DNA from: Bacteroidales bacterium | Lineage (GTDB): Bacteria; Bacteroidota; Bacteroidia; Bacteroidales; UBA10428 | Length of the DNA stretch: 35,418 nt | NCBI GenBank assembly: GCA_016935615.1 | Contig: JAFGQO010000161.1 | Span: 1 to 35,418 of the forward strand | Direction: 5' to 3' | In this document: piece after piece, positions 1,621-6,601 of the stretch | Layout: the number at the start of each line of letters is the position of its first letter | Position numbering within the stretch: the stretch's first letter is position 1 | Notes under the pieces: model-generated | Database searches by the model: none | The model's input: the letters and a program-made list of their open reading frames with translations, nothing else | Told to the model about the DNA's origin: nothing | Position numbers and translations under genes: made by a program

Positions 1621-1772
1621 AGTAATTATACTTTTAGTGATCCAGTCTGCATTCTTCTCCAGTTTTGTTTACCTGAAATGATAAAAATATAAGAAGTGTT
1701 ACAAAAAGCATTTATTTTTATAATAAATTGACAGAAAATTGTAATCTTTTACCCTTTCAAGTCATATCCGTA

Positions 1773-2606
1773 ATGGAAAGTACTGACAATTTCAAGACAT
1801 TCATTGCAGCTCTTGCAAAAGGAGAATCCGATACAAGAGCCATTGAATTTATCGGGATCATTGTCAGAAACTGGTGCCGCAAAAACAAACTGGAAATACA
1901 ATGGATAGCTTTTGAAAATATGGTTTGGAATGATACAGAATTCTATAGAAACATTCATTCTGCTGCAATGAAAATCATCAGACGAGAAAATACCAAGACC
2001 TATAATAATTATAAAGCACTGATAGTCAGTACTGCAGAAAAAATGTTGAAGAAAGGATTTGAAAATTTTAATACCCTGCTGATAGAAAAGAACAACCTTG
2101 CCTGGAAACGCGTGGAAAAGCAACTGAAAGTATATGCCTTCAAATGGCATAGCAGCAGGACTTATGGGAAAGATTCAGACTGCCATGATCTTCACTGGTC
2201 TGCAATACATATCCTGTTTGAAAAACTATCTTTTAAAAAGCTTCACTTTAAAAATTCCTTCGAACTGAAATCCTATTATTTCAGGATACTTGAGAATAAA
2301 ATGAAAGAACATTTCCGGGAAAAAAAGAAAGAAAACCGTATAAGCCGGGAAATACCGGAATTATTCTATGATACTGATGATTCAAAAGAAGATGATCTGA
2401 TATGCTTTGTGAAAAAAGAGATCAATAAACTGGCTGAAAATGAAAAATATATTATACAAGAGTATTTTATCTATGAAAAAAAATTGACTGAAATTGCAGA
2501 AGAATTAAATATTTCTGCAGAAAATTGCCGGGTTATCAAACACAGGGCTTTAAAAAAACTTATGGAAAGTATTCCTGAACGCGAAAAATTGTACACTTTA
2601 AGTTAA
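1773..2606 (+). CDS. Sigma-70 family RNA polymerase sigma factor (ECF-like, extended N-terminus)
   Basis: Residues of about 208-268 form a sigma region 4 helix-turn-helix: 'LAENEKYIIQEYFIYEKKL' leads into 'EIAEELNISAENCRVIKHRA' and 'KKLMESI'. A region-2-like stretch lies at about residues 105-185. At 277 residues it is longer than a typical ECF sigma (about 170-200) because of an N-terminal extension of about 100 residues with no recognised motif. I chose the ATG at 1773 (MESTDNF) over an in-frame TTG at 1728. The next gene, 9 bases downstream, encodes a zinc-finger membrane protein of anti-sigma type, so the two are probably co-transcribed and act as a pair. The target regulon is not visible; the convergent CHAT gene is one candidate partner. 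Confidence 0.75.
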   Translation: MESTDNFKTFIAALAKGESDTRAIEFIGIIVRNWCRKNKLEIQWIAFENMVWNDTEFYRNIHSAAMKIIRRENTKTYNNYKALIVSTAEKMLKKGFENFNTLLIEKNNLAWKRVEKQLKVYAFKWHSSRTYGKDSDCHDLHWSAIHILFEKLSFKKLHFKNSFELKSYYFRILENKMKEHFREKKKENRISREIPELFYDTDDSKEDDLICFVKKEINKLAENEKYIIQEYFIYEKKLTEIAEELNISAENCRVIKHRALKKLMESIPEREKLYTLS

Positions 2607-2615
2607 ACACATTGT

Positions 2616-3410
2616 ATGAAGTTGAATCATAATATAATAGAGAATAATAACATGATAGAGAATTATGTCCTTGGAAAACTGAATAAGGAAGAAGAATCAG
2701 ATTTTGAAGAACATATTCTTGGTTGTGTGAAATGCAGACGCAAATGCGAACTTCTGGAAACAATAATCGCAGGCTCGGAACAAAGATTAATTGAAGAAGA
2801 CGATACTTTGCAGACAAACAAAACCAAAAAAATAACGCTCCCGGTATCGTATAAAATACTATGGCGCGCTGCTGCTGCAATAGTGATTCTGGCAGGTGCA
2901 GTTTACTTTATAACAAATACCGGTAAGTTCCATCCTGCAAACCCTAAAAATCAACAGGTAGCTGATAATTATAGGACAGATACAACAAATAAAGGTACAA
3001 ACGATAGTTCTGCTGTAAGTATCGATAAAATTAAAAACAAGGAATCTCAACAGGAAGAACCAGGAATTGAAAAGTATGAACAGAAAAAATATACATTACT
3101 CGCAGAGGCTTTTGATCCCTCTCCTGTTTTCGAAAGTGCAATCCAAAATCAACTTCGCAGCAACGATATTGCAGTAACTTCACCTGCAGATTCGGCAATG
3201 TATAAAAAAAATCAGGAGATTGTTTTCTTATGGCATACCAATTCAACTATGGATATTATACTCATCCTGAGAAAAAATACCGGAAATACTATTTTTAAGG
3301 AAAAGGTTCAATCCCCTTGTTCCAAAACAATCGATATTCCCGGGTTGTATTACTGGCAACTTGCAGTTCATGATGAGGTTATCCATACCGGAAAGTTTTT
3401 GGTAAAATGA
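2616..3410 (+). CDS. Zinc-finger (zf-HC2-like) transmembrane anti-sigma factor
   Basis: The protein has 264 residues. The N-terminus carries the H-x3-C-x2-C signature of zinc anti-sigma factors (His33, Cys37, Cys40 in 'EEHILGCVKC'). A linker and one transmembrane helix follow at about residues 81-99 (ILWRAAAAIVILAGAVYFI). A polar linker and a C-terminal domain of about 100 residues, probably periplasmic and beta-rich, complete it. The layout is a cytoplasmic sigma-binding domain, one membrane pass and an outer sensor. It lies 9 bases after the sigma gene, so it is the likely cognate regulator. The C-terminal domain matches no family I recognise; 'IVFLWHTNSTMDIILILR' and 'YYWQLAV' suggest an Ig-like beta-sandwich. 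Confidence 0.75.
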   Translation: MKLNHNIIENNNMIENYVLGKLNKEEESDFEEHILGCVKCRRKCELLETIIAGSEQRLIEEDDTLQTNKTKKITLPVSYKILWRAAAAIVILAGAVYFITNTGKFHPANPKNQQVADNYRTDTTNKGTNDSSAVSIDKIKNKESQQEEPGIEKYEQKKYTLLAEAFDPSPVFESAIQNQLRSNDIAVTSPADSAMYKKNQEIVFLWHTNSTMDIILILRKNTGNTIFKEKVQSPCSKTIDIPGLYYWQLAVHDEVIHTGKFLVK

Positions 3411-3439
3411 TGGGTGTGTAAATACACCGCAAATCTTCT

Positions 3440-6400
3440 TTAGTCGGTATCAATTAAAGTAAAACCTCCCCAAAACAGAGGGTATGCATGGTTTTTACTC
3501 TTTATCATTTCCAGTTTGGCCTCCTGTAAAGCCTCCGAGTAAGATTTGCCCTGCAGAAGATTAGAATAAAACAGCACCATGAGTTCCCGTGTGCTTTTGT
3601 CACCAACCTTCCATAAGGAAAATAGTATGTTTGGGACTCCGGAACAAAGAAAACCCCGCGTTATTGAAATTATTCCTTCTCCTTTCACCATTTTCCCTGT
3701 TCCCGTTTCACAAGCGCTAAGTACTACAAGATCGGCATTTAAATCAAGCCCATATATTTCAGAAGCATACAAAACTCCATCTGTGCCTGACATTGCTTTA
3801 TCTGCCTGCTCTGTCCGGTTGGTTTCACTGTTCTTTCCGGATTGTGAAAATATTAATCCCGAAAGATCCGGGTGATTTTCATTGATCATACCGTGTGTGG
3901 CAATGTGTATGTATTTGTATTTACCGGATTCCTTTTTGAATATCTCCTCATTGGCCATGGAGTATAAATAAGCACTTGCAGGAAGGTCCATATTCCGAAA
4001 AAGAGATATGATCTCCCGGACTTCATCTTTCGAAAAATTCAGTTCGTTGAATGTAAGTCCGTCAATTGAAACAGAACGTAAAGCTATTTCATCATTCGTA
4101 AGAGCATCGGCAATAGGTGTACCCTGAATGATCAATGAATTGTTCGAGCTGTCGGAATCGAAAACAGGAGCAAAACCAACAAAACCATCGTATGAGGATT
4201 TATGAACCGGTCGCTTGCCGGAGTCATTCAATAACGTAGAGGCTGTATATCGATAACTTACAGGAAATCGTTTTATCAGGTAATTCAAATCGGAAAAAAC
4301 AAGGTCCTTTTCACTATCAATCTCAGTGAACAAGGTTTCATAAGGCAAATAGTATAGTGCTTTATCCGGTATAATGATTGCATGTTTTATATTGCTGATC
4401 CGTTCTTCAATGGGTGCTACTAATAATCCATATAGAAAAGAATTCGTTTGTCTGTATGTATCGAAATCGTATGTCTTTACCGATCTCAAATAATCATGAA
4501 TGGATTTTTCAAAGGCAGTACCAATAGTTTGCCTGAAAAGATAATGATACTTGTTCTCAAACAATGATATATATAAGGAAGTATCAGATATATTGTATGA
4601 TATTACTACCTCATTTGAATCTCTTAATTCACAAACCGTTTTCAATGAGGGCAATTTATTTACAGGAATCAGTTGGTTGAATTTCGGATAATTCAACGCA
4701 TAGAGAGACTGGAGATCGTCATACTCTTTTTCAACGCTGAACAACCTGGTGTACAATTCTCTTGTTGCGATAAGGTCTTTTGTCGTATCATTTTTTTCTT
4801 CCAGTTCTATCAATTCTGATTTGTACGCGCGAATTGTTGAGATCAATTCTTTTTCTTTCATCCTGAGAGAATCAGGTATACCCACATTTTTTGCCAGGTC
4901 GTTTTTCATTAGTACATCACGCAAAATTCCCTGCTTACTTCGCTCCATCAGATTATGTATTGTCTCTAAAACAGTTGAATCCCTGCTCGCTTTGAAGTAT
5001 ATATAGGCCGTATTGATCGCATCAGAGAATAAATTCGCGTGTTTTTCCGATAAATATTCTTTTGATTCTTCGGCTGTATAGCTTCGCCTCATCTGTTCAG
5101 TGAAATTAACAGCAAGTTTGTATACAATTACAGATTTTTCCAAATCATCAATCTTTGAATTGTCTCTATAATACCGGTGAAAAAAGATCATGGCTTTTAA
5201 CTGAAGGGACAGCAGATACATTTTATAGTCCAATACGATCGTATCCAATACTCCATCGTCATTTTCTATTATCCTTCTGTTTGCCTGCAATGCGTAATCA
5301 ACATAAAACAATGCTGAATCAAGTTCATTGAGTTCATTGTAACTTTCGGCTTTATTATTTGCATATACGGCAATATCCGGATGAATATAATTCGCGAAGC
5401 AATGACGGAGGGAATGTATTGCTTCATCAAATTTCAGGATTGCTCTTCTGTAATCTTCCATTCTGAAATAGATATCTCCCATATTATTCAAAACCTGTGC
5501 GATATCCGGATGGTAATCACCGTATATGCTTTTTTTAATCGCGTAAGACCTGTTGTGATAGTCAAGAGCCTTATCGAATTCGTTAAAATGTCGGTATACG
5601 TTGGCAAGGTTCATATACGACATAGCAATGTCAGGATGATTCGAAGGAAGCGATTTTTCTCTTATTGACAGAGCTCTGTGATGATTTTCAAGAGCCTTCT
5701 CATAGTCGCCTATCGCTTCATAAATGGCTCCAAAATTATTATAACACATCGCAGTGAGTGGGTGTTCTTCACCCAAAACAGTTTTTCGTATCGTAAAGAC
5801 AGATCTTTCGTAATTCAGAGCTTTCTGATAATCTCCTCTCTCATAATAGATCACACACAGGTTGGTATAACTTGCTGCTGTATTCAAATCATATTCACCC
5901 AGAACCTTCAGACGTATAGCCAGAGCTTTCTCATGCATGACTGAAGCCGAATCCAATTTACCAAGATCTATGTATACATTTCCTAAATTATTATACCCTG
6001 CTGCCATTAAATGGTGATCCTCACCGTATAATTCCATGACAATCCTCAATGCCTTCTTATAGTATGAAATTGATTTTCTGAAATCCCCTGCTTCGTAATA
6101 TACTATTCCAAAATTTCCATAGGCAGAAGATGTTCTGATATGATTGTACCCATAATACTCTTCACACAACTGAACAGCTTTCATCATATAACGAGTCGCT
6201 TCTGTAAAATCGGAATAATTGCATAGTATCCGTGCTTTTAAAGAATAGCAATCGATTAATATTTTGGATGAATCATCTTCCAGTTGAGGCACTTTTTCAA
6301 TAGCAAGTTCAATCAGGGTATTGGCACTATCAGTCAAATTTTTAAAAGAACAGATAAAAGCCGTCTCTACGAGAGCCTCAAGGTATTCTTTATTCAAACC

Positions 6401-6601
6401 CTGCTCTGAAAACAATATGCCGGATTTCATGAAGTAAAATCCTGCACTATCAAATTCCTGCGCTCTTCTTAGCGAATCTGCCTTATTAAATAATCTGAAA
6501 GCTACACTGTCAGTTTGAGATTGACCTCTGAGAATTTCGTGAATAGAAAAAGATAACAGAAGTATCACAGCAATGCAAAAGAATGGCCGTCTACTTTTCA
6601 T
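3440..6601 (-). CDS. Exported TPR-repeat protein with C-terminal CHAT (caspase-like) protease domain
   Basis: I set the start at the ATG at 6601 (MKSRRPFF), because a signal peptide begins there; an in-frame upstream start at 6643 adds 14 residues. The result is 1053 residues. After the signal sequence comes a long array of 42-residue tetratricopeptide repeats (kinesin light chain type, 'A.SYNNLG.IY...GDY.KAL.Y...AL.I'). A coiled linker and a C-terminal CHAT domain follow. The caspase-like dyad is intact: His903 in 'HIATHG' and Cys964 in 'LSACETG', and the domain continues with 'GVPNILFSLWKVGDKST'. CHAT domains are cysteine peptidases that cut protein partners, as in type III-E CRISPR Csx29 and separase-like proteins. 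A signal peptide would place this one outside the cytoplasm. The gene converges on the anti-sigma gene with 29 bases between them. Confidence 0.88.
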   Translation of the reverse strand: MKSRRPFFCIAVILLLSFSIHEILRGQSQTDSVAFRLFNKADSLRRAQEFDSAGFYFMKSGILFSEQGLNKEYLEALVETAFICSFKNLTDSANTLIELAIEKVPQLEDDSSKILIDCYSLKARILCNYSDFTEATRYMMKAVQLCEEYYGYNHIRTSSAYGNFGIVYYEAGDFRKSISYYKKALRIVMELYGEDHHLMAAGYNNLGNVYIDLGKLDSASVMHEKALAIRLKVLGEYDLNTAASYTNLCVIYYERGDYQKALNYERSVFTIRKTVLGEEHPLTAMCYNNFGAIYEAIGDYEKALENHHRALSIREKSLPSNHPDIAMSYMNLANVYRHFNEFDKALDYHNRSYAIKKSIYGDYHPDIAQVLNNMGDIYFRMEDYRRAILKFDEAIHSLRHCFANYIHPDIAVYANNKAESYNELNELDSALFYVDYALQANRRIIENDDGVLDTIVLDYKMYLLSLQLKAMIFFHRYYRDNSKIDDLEKSVIVYKLAVNFTEQMRRSYTAEESKEYLSEKHANLFSDAINTAYIYFKASRDSTVLETIHNLMERSKQGILRDVLMKNDLAKNVGIPDSLRMKEKELISTIRAYKSELIELEEKNDTTKDLIATRELYTRLFSVEKEYDDLQSLYALNYPKFNQLIPVNKLPSLKTVCELRDSNEVVISYNISDTSLYISLFENKYHYLFRQTIGTAFEKSIHDYLRSVKTYDFDTYRQTNSFLYGLLVAPIEERISNIKHAIIIPDKALYYLPYETLFTEIDSEKDLVFSDLNYLIKRFPVSYRYTASTLLNDSGKRPVHKSSYDGFVGFAPVFDSDSSNNSLIIQGTPIADALTNDEIALRSVSIDGLTFNELNFSKDEVREIISLFRNMDLPASAYLYSMANEEIFKKESGKYKYIHIATHGMINENHPDLSGLIFSQSGKNSETNRTEQADKAMSGTDGVLYASEIYGLDLNADLVVLSACETGTGKMVKGEGIISITRGFLCSGVPNILFSLWKVGDKSTRELMVLFYSNLLQGKSYSEALQEAKLEMIKSKNHAYPLFWGGFTLIDTD

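Follow-up and report, generated by a model that had tools for sequence, protein, structure and literature searches.

Exported TPR-CHAT proteins encoded beside ECF sigma factors in Bacteroidota: candidate site-1 proteases for membrane anti-sigma factors

Why is a protein built like a caspase-type protease, and predicted to be exported, encoded tail to tail with a sigma factor and its membrane-bound anti-sigma factor? The question is raised by a 35,418-nucleotide stretch of DNA from a Bacteroidales bacterium (contig JAFGQO010000161.1 of assembly GCA_016935615.1; this whole stretch is hereafter called the window), in which three genes between positions 1773 and 6601 encode an extracytoplasmic function (ECF) sigma factor, an anti-sigma factor, and a protein with tetratricopeptide repeats (TPRs) and a CHAT domain. 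Our analysis suggests that this locus is probably a membrane-relay switch, in which the CHAT protein cuts the anti-sigma factor after an arginine in its linker and a site-2 protease then frees the sigma factor. The coordinates of the three open reading frames (ORFs) were verified, and the gene order, positions and gaps described in the initial annotation of this DNA were found to be correct: the sigma and anti-sigma genes are separated by 9 bases, and the stop codons of the anti-sigma and TPR-CHAT genes lie 29 bases apart. The three genes are as follows.

1773..2606, forward strand: ECF-type sigma factor, 277 residues, with an N-terminal extension of ~95-100 residues (TIGR02937, Sigma70_r4)
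2616..3410, forward strand: type A anti-sigma factor, 264 residues, with a zinc finger, one transmembrane helix, a disordered linker and an Ig/FN3-like C-terminal domain
3440..6601, reverse strand: exported TPR-CHAT protein, 1053 residues, convergent with the sigma/anti-sigma operon (Pfam, AlphaFold model)

A conserved neighbourhood of these genes had been proposed as a check on their functional connection, and one was found among relatives, in a phylum-wide sample and at loci from a blind test. The genome from which the window comes (3.8 Mb) holds 4 CHAT genes and 24 ECF sigma genes over the cut-off; all four CHAT genes have an ECF sigma gene within ~2 kb, and the sigma factors so linked are four of the five lowest scorers among the 24. 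A search of 40 relatives gave strong sigma and anti-sigma matches at loci of this type only. The convergent trio is repeated in five relatives (G016, G006, G029, G001 and G020, the last split over two contigs), and G015 carries the sigma and anti-sigma genes without an adjoining CHAT gene. Sigma density in the relatives is 24 genes per 100 kb in the first 1.5 kb around a CHAT gene, against a genome mean of ~0.6. Phylum-wide, in a sample of CHAT genes picked without regard to sigma factors, a sigma gene lies within 5 kb of 44 of the 79, and the sigma density in successive 1.5-kb bins around the CHAT genes is 8.5, 7.4, 3.6, 0, 0.6 and 1.4 per 100 kb. No sigma genes were found near the cyanobacterial CHAT genes (0 of 14). 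The association between CHAT and sigma genes is far above chance. These samples are phylogenetically correlated and include many metagenome-assembled genomes, and ORF calling and transmembrane prediction were simple throughout.

The linked CHAT proteins of the phylum sample belong to at least nine families, and their genes are convergent, divergent or on the same strand relative to the sigma genes. Because of these many families and varied orientations, the trio is not one inherited block. Among 80 named genome contigs, sigma-linked relatives were found in Bacteroidales, Saprospiraceae, Chitinophagales, Cryomorphaceae, Balneolaceae, Fulvivirga and Agaribacillus; two Acidobacteriota contigs also have a sigma-linked CHAT gene, and an Ignavibacteriales-type contig (L192) has a sigma factor with an anti-sigma factor of the window type.

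Some loci depart from the usual arrangement. The two Acidobacteriota loci, L220 (Pyrinomonadaceae) and L246 (Terriglobia), encode a CHAT protein, a sigma factor and a protein with one transmembrane helix and a long coiled-coil-like linker, and are a further, different version of the module. Tandem CHAT genes occur at single loci in L174 (G050:C73:84500-104000), L126 (G127:C6) and L240; in some cases they share one sigma/anti-sigma pair, and in L174 three CHAT genes stand in a row with no sigma gene detected. The CHAT genes of L169, L170 and L171 (families f30) score weakly against Pfam CHAT; the sigma gene convergent with them is larger, and a protein of 287-289 residues takes the place of the usual anti-sigma factor with one transmembrane helix.

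What, then, is the third partner, the anti-sigma factor, and does the linkage follow it? The window protein has the parts listed here.

2628..2804, forward strand: cytoplasmic zinc-finger anti-sigma domain, residues 5-63 (HxxxCxxC, NF052375, three model helices)
2850..2918, forward strand: transmembrane helix, residues 79-101 (hydropathy and model)
3156..3161, forward strand: Arg181-Ser182, candidate CHAT cleavage site, between the linker helix and the Ig-like domain
3168..3404, forward strand: periplasmic Ig/FN3-like domain, residues 185-263, with a GLYYWxL...GK signature (pLDDT ~90, FN3/Ig matches)

Its zinc motif, H33-x3-C37-x2-C40, is invariant in six orthologues, and the zinc-finger region matches the NF052375 antisigma profile (E 1.1e-6); the zf-HC2 profile is matched at E 8e-4 and 19.9 bits, below the Pfam cut-off of 22.2. 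The protein has the ZAS layout, being encoded directly downstream of the sigma factor with one transmembrane helix and an extracytoplasmic C-terminus, and orthologous loci are alike. In the structural model (m2e4506df923f) the zinc-finger part forms three helices, residues 107-160 are disordered, and a short helix (170-177) and a strand (185-189) lead into the C-terminal domain, for which Foldseek returned FN3/Ig matches. The earlier description of a single-pass anti-sigma factor is upheld, and its zinc finger is probable. Partners at other CHAT loci fall into several forms. Type A, the window type, has the zinc finger, transmembrane helix, long linker and Ig/FN3-like domain; type B, the majority, consists of a non-zinc N-terminal segment, a transmembrane helix, a short linker and a TPR domain. 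Two more forms are present in other families.

For the blind test, 296 genomes of the phylum were scanned with a profile built on the window-type anti-sigma factor. All four new loci that matched the type A C-terminal domain have a convergent TPR-CHAT gene 2-145 bp away; three have a sigma gene upstream by profile, and L331 has an unrecognised 199-residue ORF in that place. Two loci that matched the zinc finger only have a sigma gene and no CHAT gene. For type B, a CHAT gene is present in 21 of the 22 genomes that encode the partner at full length (E<=1e-15), compared with 61 of 119 overall (Fisher test 2e-6, counting genomes as independent and not corrected for phylogeny). CHAT tree distances track those of the anti-sigma factor more than those of the sigma factor (partial r 0.32 versus 0.16), as expected if the CHAT protein and the anti-sigma factor touch. 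These results bear on the view that the neighbourhood is real but functionally loose, with CHAT genes and sigma operons travelling together in variable envelope or defence islands. Such a view would fit the patchy distribution of CHAT genes, present in 61 of 118 genomes, and the varied gene arrangements. However, the three parts have been re-assembled repeatedly in different orders while remaining directly adjacent, they co-occur at the genome level even when unlinked, and the partners have an arginine site in common, so that we regard loose linkage as highly improbable.

That site lies in the periplasmic linker. Across all partner types, the linkers carry an arginine followed by Ser, Gly, Ala, Asn, Thr or Asp (hereafter Arg-small), and a few read Lys-small. 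All 16 non-redundant type A sequences have the linker arginine (R181 in the window), while the surrounding linker is variable; in the model, R181 lies in the loop between the 170-177 helix and the Ig-like domain, and the R181-S182 pair was read directly from the sequence. An alignment of all type B partners did not place the arginine in one column, and because linker length varies, distance from the transmembrane helix was used instead. Arg-small is present in 63 of 66 type B linkers, whereas 2000 shuffles gave 41.6 ± 3.5 and never more than 54; its median position is 24 residues beyond the transmembrane helix (interquartile range, 21-26). Between +15 and +36 after the helix, it was found in 68 of 76 type B partners and in 6 of 23 anti-sigma factors without a CHAT protein (Fisher test 1e-8; the control set leaves out the mislabelled L047, L048, L313 and L324). 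The presence of the dipeptide anywhere in the linker was tried as a discriminator and rejected as weak (97% versus 70%), and position and conservation were therefore examined.

TPR-type anti-sigma factors away from CHAT genes were also inspected. Four that are unlinked in CHAT-containing genomes, L340 (G076:C47:71 kb), L341, L342 and L343, all keep Arg-small, which suggests action in trans. Two from genomes that lack CHAT genes, L338 (G111:C11) and L339 (G115:C3), have lost it and read Arg-Pro and Lys-Thr (n=2).

Many proteases of clan CD, including separase, gingipain R, clostripain and the metacaspases, cut after Arg or Lys, and the linker Arg-small is a candidate site suited to such an enzyme. 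Its recurrence in unrelated periplasmic architectures would be best explained by the neighbouring protease as the common factor.

Is the TPR-CHAT protein equipped to act there? Its features in the window are the following.

6521..6601, reverse strand: predicted signal peptide, ~residues 1-27 (hydropathy)
5282..6499, reverse strand: TPR superhelix, ~residues 35-440 (TPR_12/TPR_10, model helices)
3452..4435, reverse strand: CHAT domain, residues 723-1050 (PF12770, E 2.1e-60)
3893..3895, reverse strand: catalytic His903 codon (read directly, context IATHGM)
3710..3712, reverse strand: catalytic Cys964 codon (read directly, context LSACETG)

The CHAT domain scores 205 bits against PF12770 (cut-off, 24), and five stretches match TPR_12. 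A phmmer search of the domain against the PDB gave no sequence-level match, and fold comparison was therefore needed. The closest folds to the AlphaFold model (pLDDT 82.9, pTM 0.80) are Csx29 (8eey_B, VIA Z 33.8, 614 residues aligned) and then separases (5u1s, Z 29.0; 5fc2, 306 residues at 3.2 Å); DdvA of Myxococcus xanthus (8rot_A) matches with a Z of 22.6 over 621 residues. Profile, dyad and a caspase/separase-like fold preceded by TPRs place the protein in the CHAT family, with proteolysis a predicted activity. PADLOC returned a generic TPR match only and no defence-system match for this protein.

The active site had been annotated as intact; the codons confirm this, and both residues of the dyad (the His903/Cys964 columns) are conserved in 91 of the 95 sigma-linked CHAT proteins. 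This conservation weighs on a further alternative, that the CHAT protein is a sensor or shield similar to RseB, which binds the anti-sigma factor while another site-1 protease cuts, its own proteolysis being irrelevant or directed at itself. A long TPR superhelix would suit binding, and the fused relative DdvA has its TPR-CHAT part within the anti-sigma factor itself (PDB 8rot/8rw5). A pure scaffold, however, would be expected to lose the dyad sometimes, and we consider this role very unlikely.

An N-terminal hydrophobic segment of the export type is present in 83 of the 95 sigma-linked CHAT proteins by hydropathy, on which the topology of these proteins is based. In 56 of the 95, a C-terminal transmembrane helix is followed by a short tail with 3.9 K/R, versus 1.3 before the helix; no such helix was found in cyanobacterial CHAT proteins (0 of 14). 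Because of the export segment and the K/R-rich tail, which the positive-inside rule puts in the cytoplasm, the CHAT domain of the sigma-linked proteins is predicted to be periplasmic and held at the inner membrane. The window protein has the N-terminal segment and is without the C-terminal anchor. Export of the CHAT protein, as first annotated, is in line with this prediction, which puts it on the same side of the membrane as the C-terminus of the anti-sigma factor.

Computation thus provides the gene set, its conservation, the predicted topology, the intact dyad and the conserved linker arginine; what we infer is the cleavage event and its position, the subsequent site-2 step, and the signal and regulon of the switch. 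The zinc-finger part of the anti-sigma factor would keep the sigma factor in the cytoplasm, while its other half would extend into the periplasm as a flexible linker with Arg181-Ser182 followed by the Ig-like domain. The TPR-CHAT protein would be exported into this compartment as well. A signal, which the initial annotation conjectured to come from the envelope and to be sensed by the TPR array, would activate its cysteine protease, and a cut after the conserved arginine would remove the folded periplasmic domain. The remaining membrane stub would be passed to a site-2 protease of the M50/RseP type, encoded elsewhere, and the sigma factor would be freed. The CHAT protein would then stand where DegS stands in the RseA pathway. 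The window genome has one PF02163 (M50) gene (E 1.9e-49); such genes are near universal, and its presence is permissive only. The site-1 position in RseA resembles the spacing of the type B candidate site from the membrane. Because of this resemblance, an exchange of the site-1 protease is more likely than a departure from the two-step scheme. The initial annotation had suggested a route different from site-1/site-2 cascades, which is not supported: the type B site lies ~24 residues from the membrane, where a site-1 cut would be expected, and the genome has an M50 gene. In a wider form, for which we would put the chances at about even, periplasmic TPR-CHAT proteins would be a general, hitherto undescribed class of Bacteroidota site-1 proteases. 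Resembling separase and encoded as proteins of their own, they would cut membrane anti-sigma factors of unrelated structure after one conserved Arg/Lys that a small residue follows, and would in each case connect a different extracytoplasmic sensor domain, Ig-like or TPR, to an ECF sigma factor.

Several points weigh against this proposal. About 40% to half of the CHAT genes in the phylum have no sigma gene nearby, so that CHAT proteins of this kind probably have other functions as well or work from elsewhere in the genome. The CHAT and sigma/anti-sigma genes are separate, convergent transcription units. The type A arginine is ~80 residues from the membrane in the window, less like a textbook site-1 cut, and Arg-small dipeptides are common in themselves, so that the weight rests on position and conservation. 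Csx29 cuts its substrate Csx30 between residues 427 and 429, and deletion of Met427 blocks cleavage (PMC10028731); because of this cut position, arginine specificity of CHAT proteases is not established.

Some of these points would favour reading the CHAT protein as an output, a product of a gene read by the sigma factor and a protease acting on other envelope proteins as a stress or defence effector. Its gene is separate and convergent, neighbouring genes are often under sigma control, CHAT proteases are known as effectors, and some CHAT genes lie away from any sigma gene. On the other hand, a two-block promoter motif common to the sigma and CHAT upstream regions was not found (same-locus, 9.94; cross-locus, 9.88), which is a weak test. 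An output role would also leave unexplained why unrelated anti-sigma linkers conserve Arg-small and why CHAT is tied more closely to the anti-sigma than to the sigma factor. We think it unlikely that the CHAT protein is such an effector rather than the trigger, and retain cleavage of the anti-sigma factor as the preferred reading.

How does a split module of this kind compare with known systems? In the type III-E CRISPR Craspase, the TPR-CHAT protein Csx29 cleaves Csx30, an inhibitor of the sigma factor CASP-sigma (PMC10028731). As in the window, a protein of the same TPR-CHAT fold, a sigma inhibitor and an ECF-type sigma factor are encoded together. Csx29, however, is driven by a complex of Cas7-11, crRNA and target RNA and cuts the soluble Csx30, whereas the window protease is predicted to be exported and would cut in the periplasm, and the sigma inhibitor there is membrane-bound and differs from Csx30 in architecture. 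Since the window protein has a predicted signal peptide and Csx29 is a non-exported protein bound to Cas7-11, at which no search was aimed, the fold and the sigma-inhibitor partner represent a shared way of working and not membership of that family. Anti-sigma cleavage is also the switch in the type III CRISPR system CalpL-CalpT-CalpS, in which a Lon-family protease with a SAVED sensor is triggered by cyclic oligoadenylate (PMC11417357); protease, anti-sigma and ECF sigma are again encoded together, but no CHAT domain is involved. For ECF54, genes for CHAT-domain proteins, subtilases and carboxypeptidases form a conserved context, and proteolytic control has been proposed, described without an anti-sigma factor and as proteolysis of the sigma factor itself (PMC8999054). 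In the window, by contrast, an anti-sigma factor adjoins the sigma factor and is the likely substrate, and the protease is predicted to be exported.

The DdvA-DdvS pair of M. xanthus (PDB 8rot, 8rw5) is considered here through the citation of Bernal-Bernal et al. 2024 in PMC12288465. DdvA, a transmembrane anti-sigma factor, resembles the window CHAT protein in structure, but joins anti-sigma factor and TPR-CHAT in one polypeptide, whereas the window encodes them in two genes on opposite strands. The window CHAT protein has the full dyad, and its anti-sigma factor has its own Ig-like domain and linker arginine. DdvA is reportedly an extracytoplasmic TPR-CHAT protein that controls an ECF sigma factor, and its active site is said to be incomplete. 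RseA/DegS/RseP of Escherichia coli has a membrane anti-sigma factor, a periplasmic first cut and then, as presumably here, an M50 protease; the protease linked in the window is a CHAT cysteine protease (clan CD) and not a trypsin-like HtrA protease, and the two would be functionally analogous only. Eukaryotic separase likewise joins a TPR/HEAT-like superhelix to a caspase fold of the CHAT type, and cleaves after Arg, but cuts cohesin in cell division and has no sigma factor. The link between CHAT proteases and anti-sigma control therefore has precedents in Csx29-Csx30, DdvA and the ECF54 contexts. With the split module described here, Csx29 and the fused DdvA make three settings in which a TPR-CHAT protein is connected with anti-sigma control. 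A literature search, which left most subscription journals and the large ECF classification papers outside its reach, found no description of an exported, split CHAT module in Bacteroidota or of the linker arginine.

The remaining features of the locus concern the sigma factor and its upstream region. The sigma factor scores 48.3 bits against TIGR02937 (cut-off, 42.9) and matches Sigma70_r4 (E 4.5e-10). The Pfam region 2 profile gave no match, and a profile-profile comparison matched residues 126-190 to ECF region 2 (probability 94%, E 1.3e-7). Since detectable region 2 begins near residue 125, the N-terminal extension of ~95-100 residues is real, as had been noted at the outset, and it is kept in six orthologues. 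Profile comparison gave no support (probability 0.1-2.5%) to an idea formed by eye, that the extension is a duplicated region 2. A further candidate element precedes the sigma gene.

1698..1744, forward strand: candidate regulatory or promoter element, GTTACA[A/G]AAAA ... TTATAAT ... TTGTAA (conservation upstream of sigma genes)

This element occurs once in the window (expectation, 0.145 per strand) and may be either a promoter under autoregulation or, with GTTACA/TTGTAA as half-sites, the binding site of a repressor. The sigma orthologues of L073, L074 and L078 have a matching layout 5' of the gene, which is not present in L075 and L077. Beyond it, at 409-1620, a PQQ/BamB-like beta-propeller lipoprotein is encoded divergently from the sigma gene. 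The suggestion that this lipoprotein is a sensor or target of the system was not sustained, as it has no counterpart in the other trio loci and its single match, L253, stands at a CHAT gene without a sigma gene.

Most ECF sigma factors of Bacteroidota have no known trigger. The candidate element that is new here is the Arg-small dipeptide, common to unrelated anti-sigma architectures in the periplasmic linker, and with it the module predicts a role for a single residue, Arg181 of the anti-sigma factor and its equivalents. If the proposal is true, an extracytoplasmic enzyme resembling caspases and separases would be a common way to switch Bacteroidota ECF sigma factors on. Bacterial CHAT proteases, whose role is largely open outside CRISPR, would gain an accessible physiological one. 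It would also link the split form to the fused DdvA and to the CRISPR-associated Csx29, and would suggest that CRISPR uses a wiring of CHAT proteases to anti-sigma factors that is itself older or more general.

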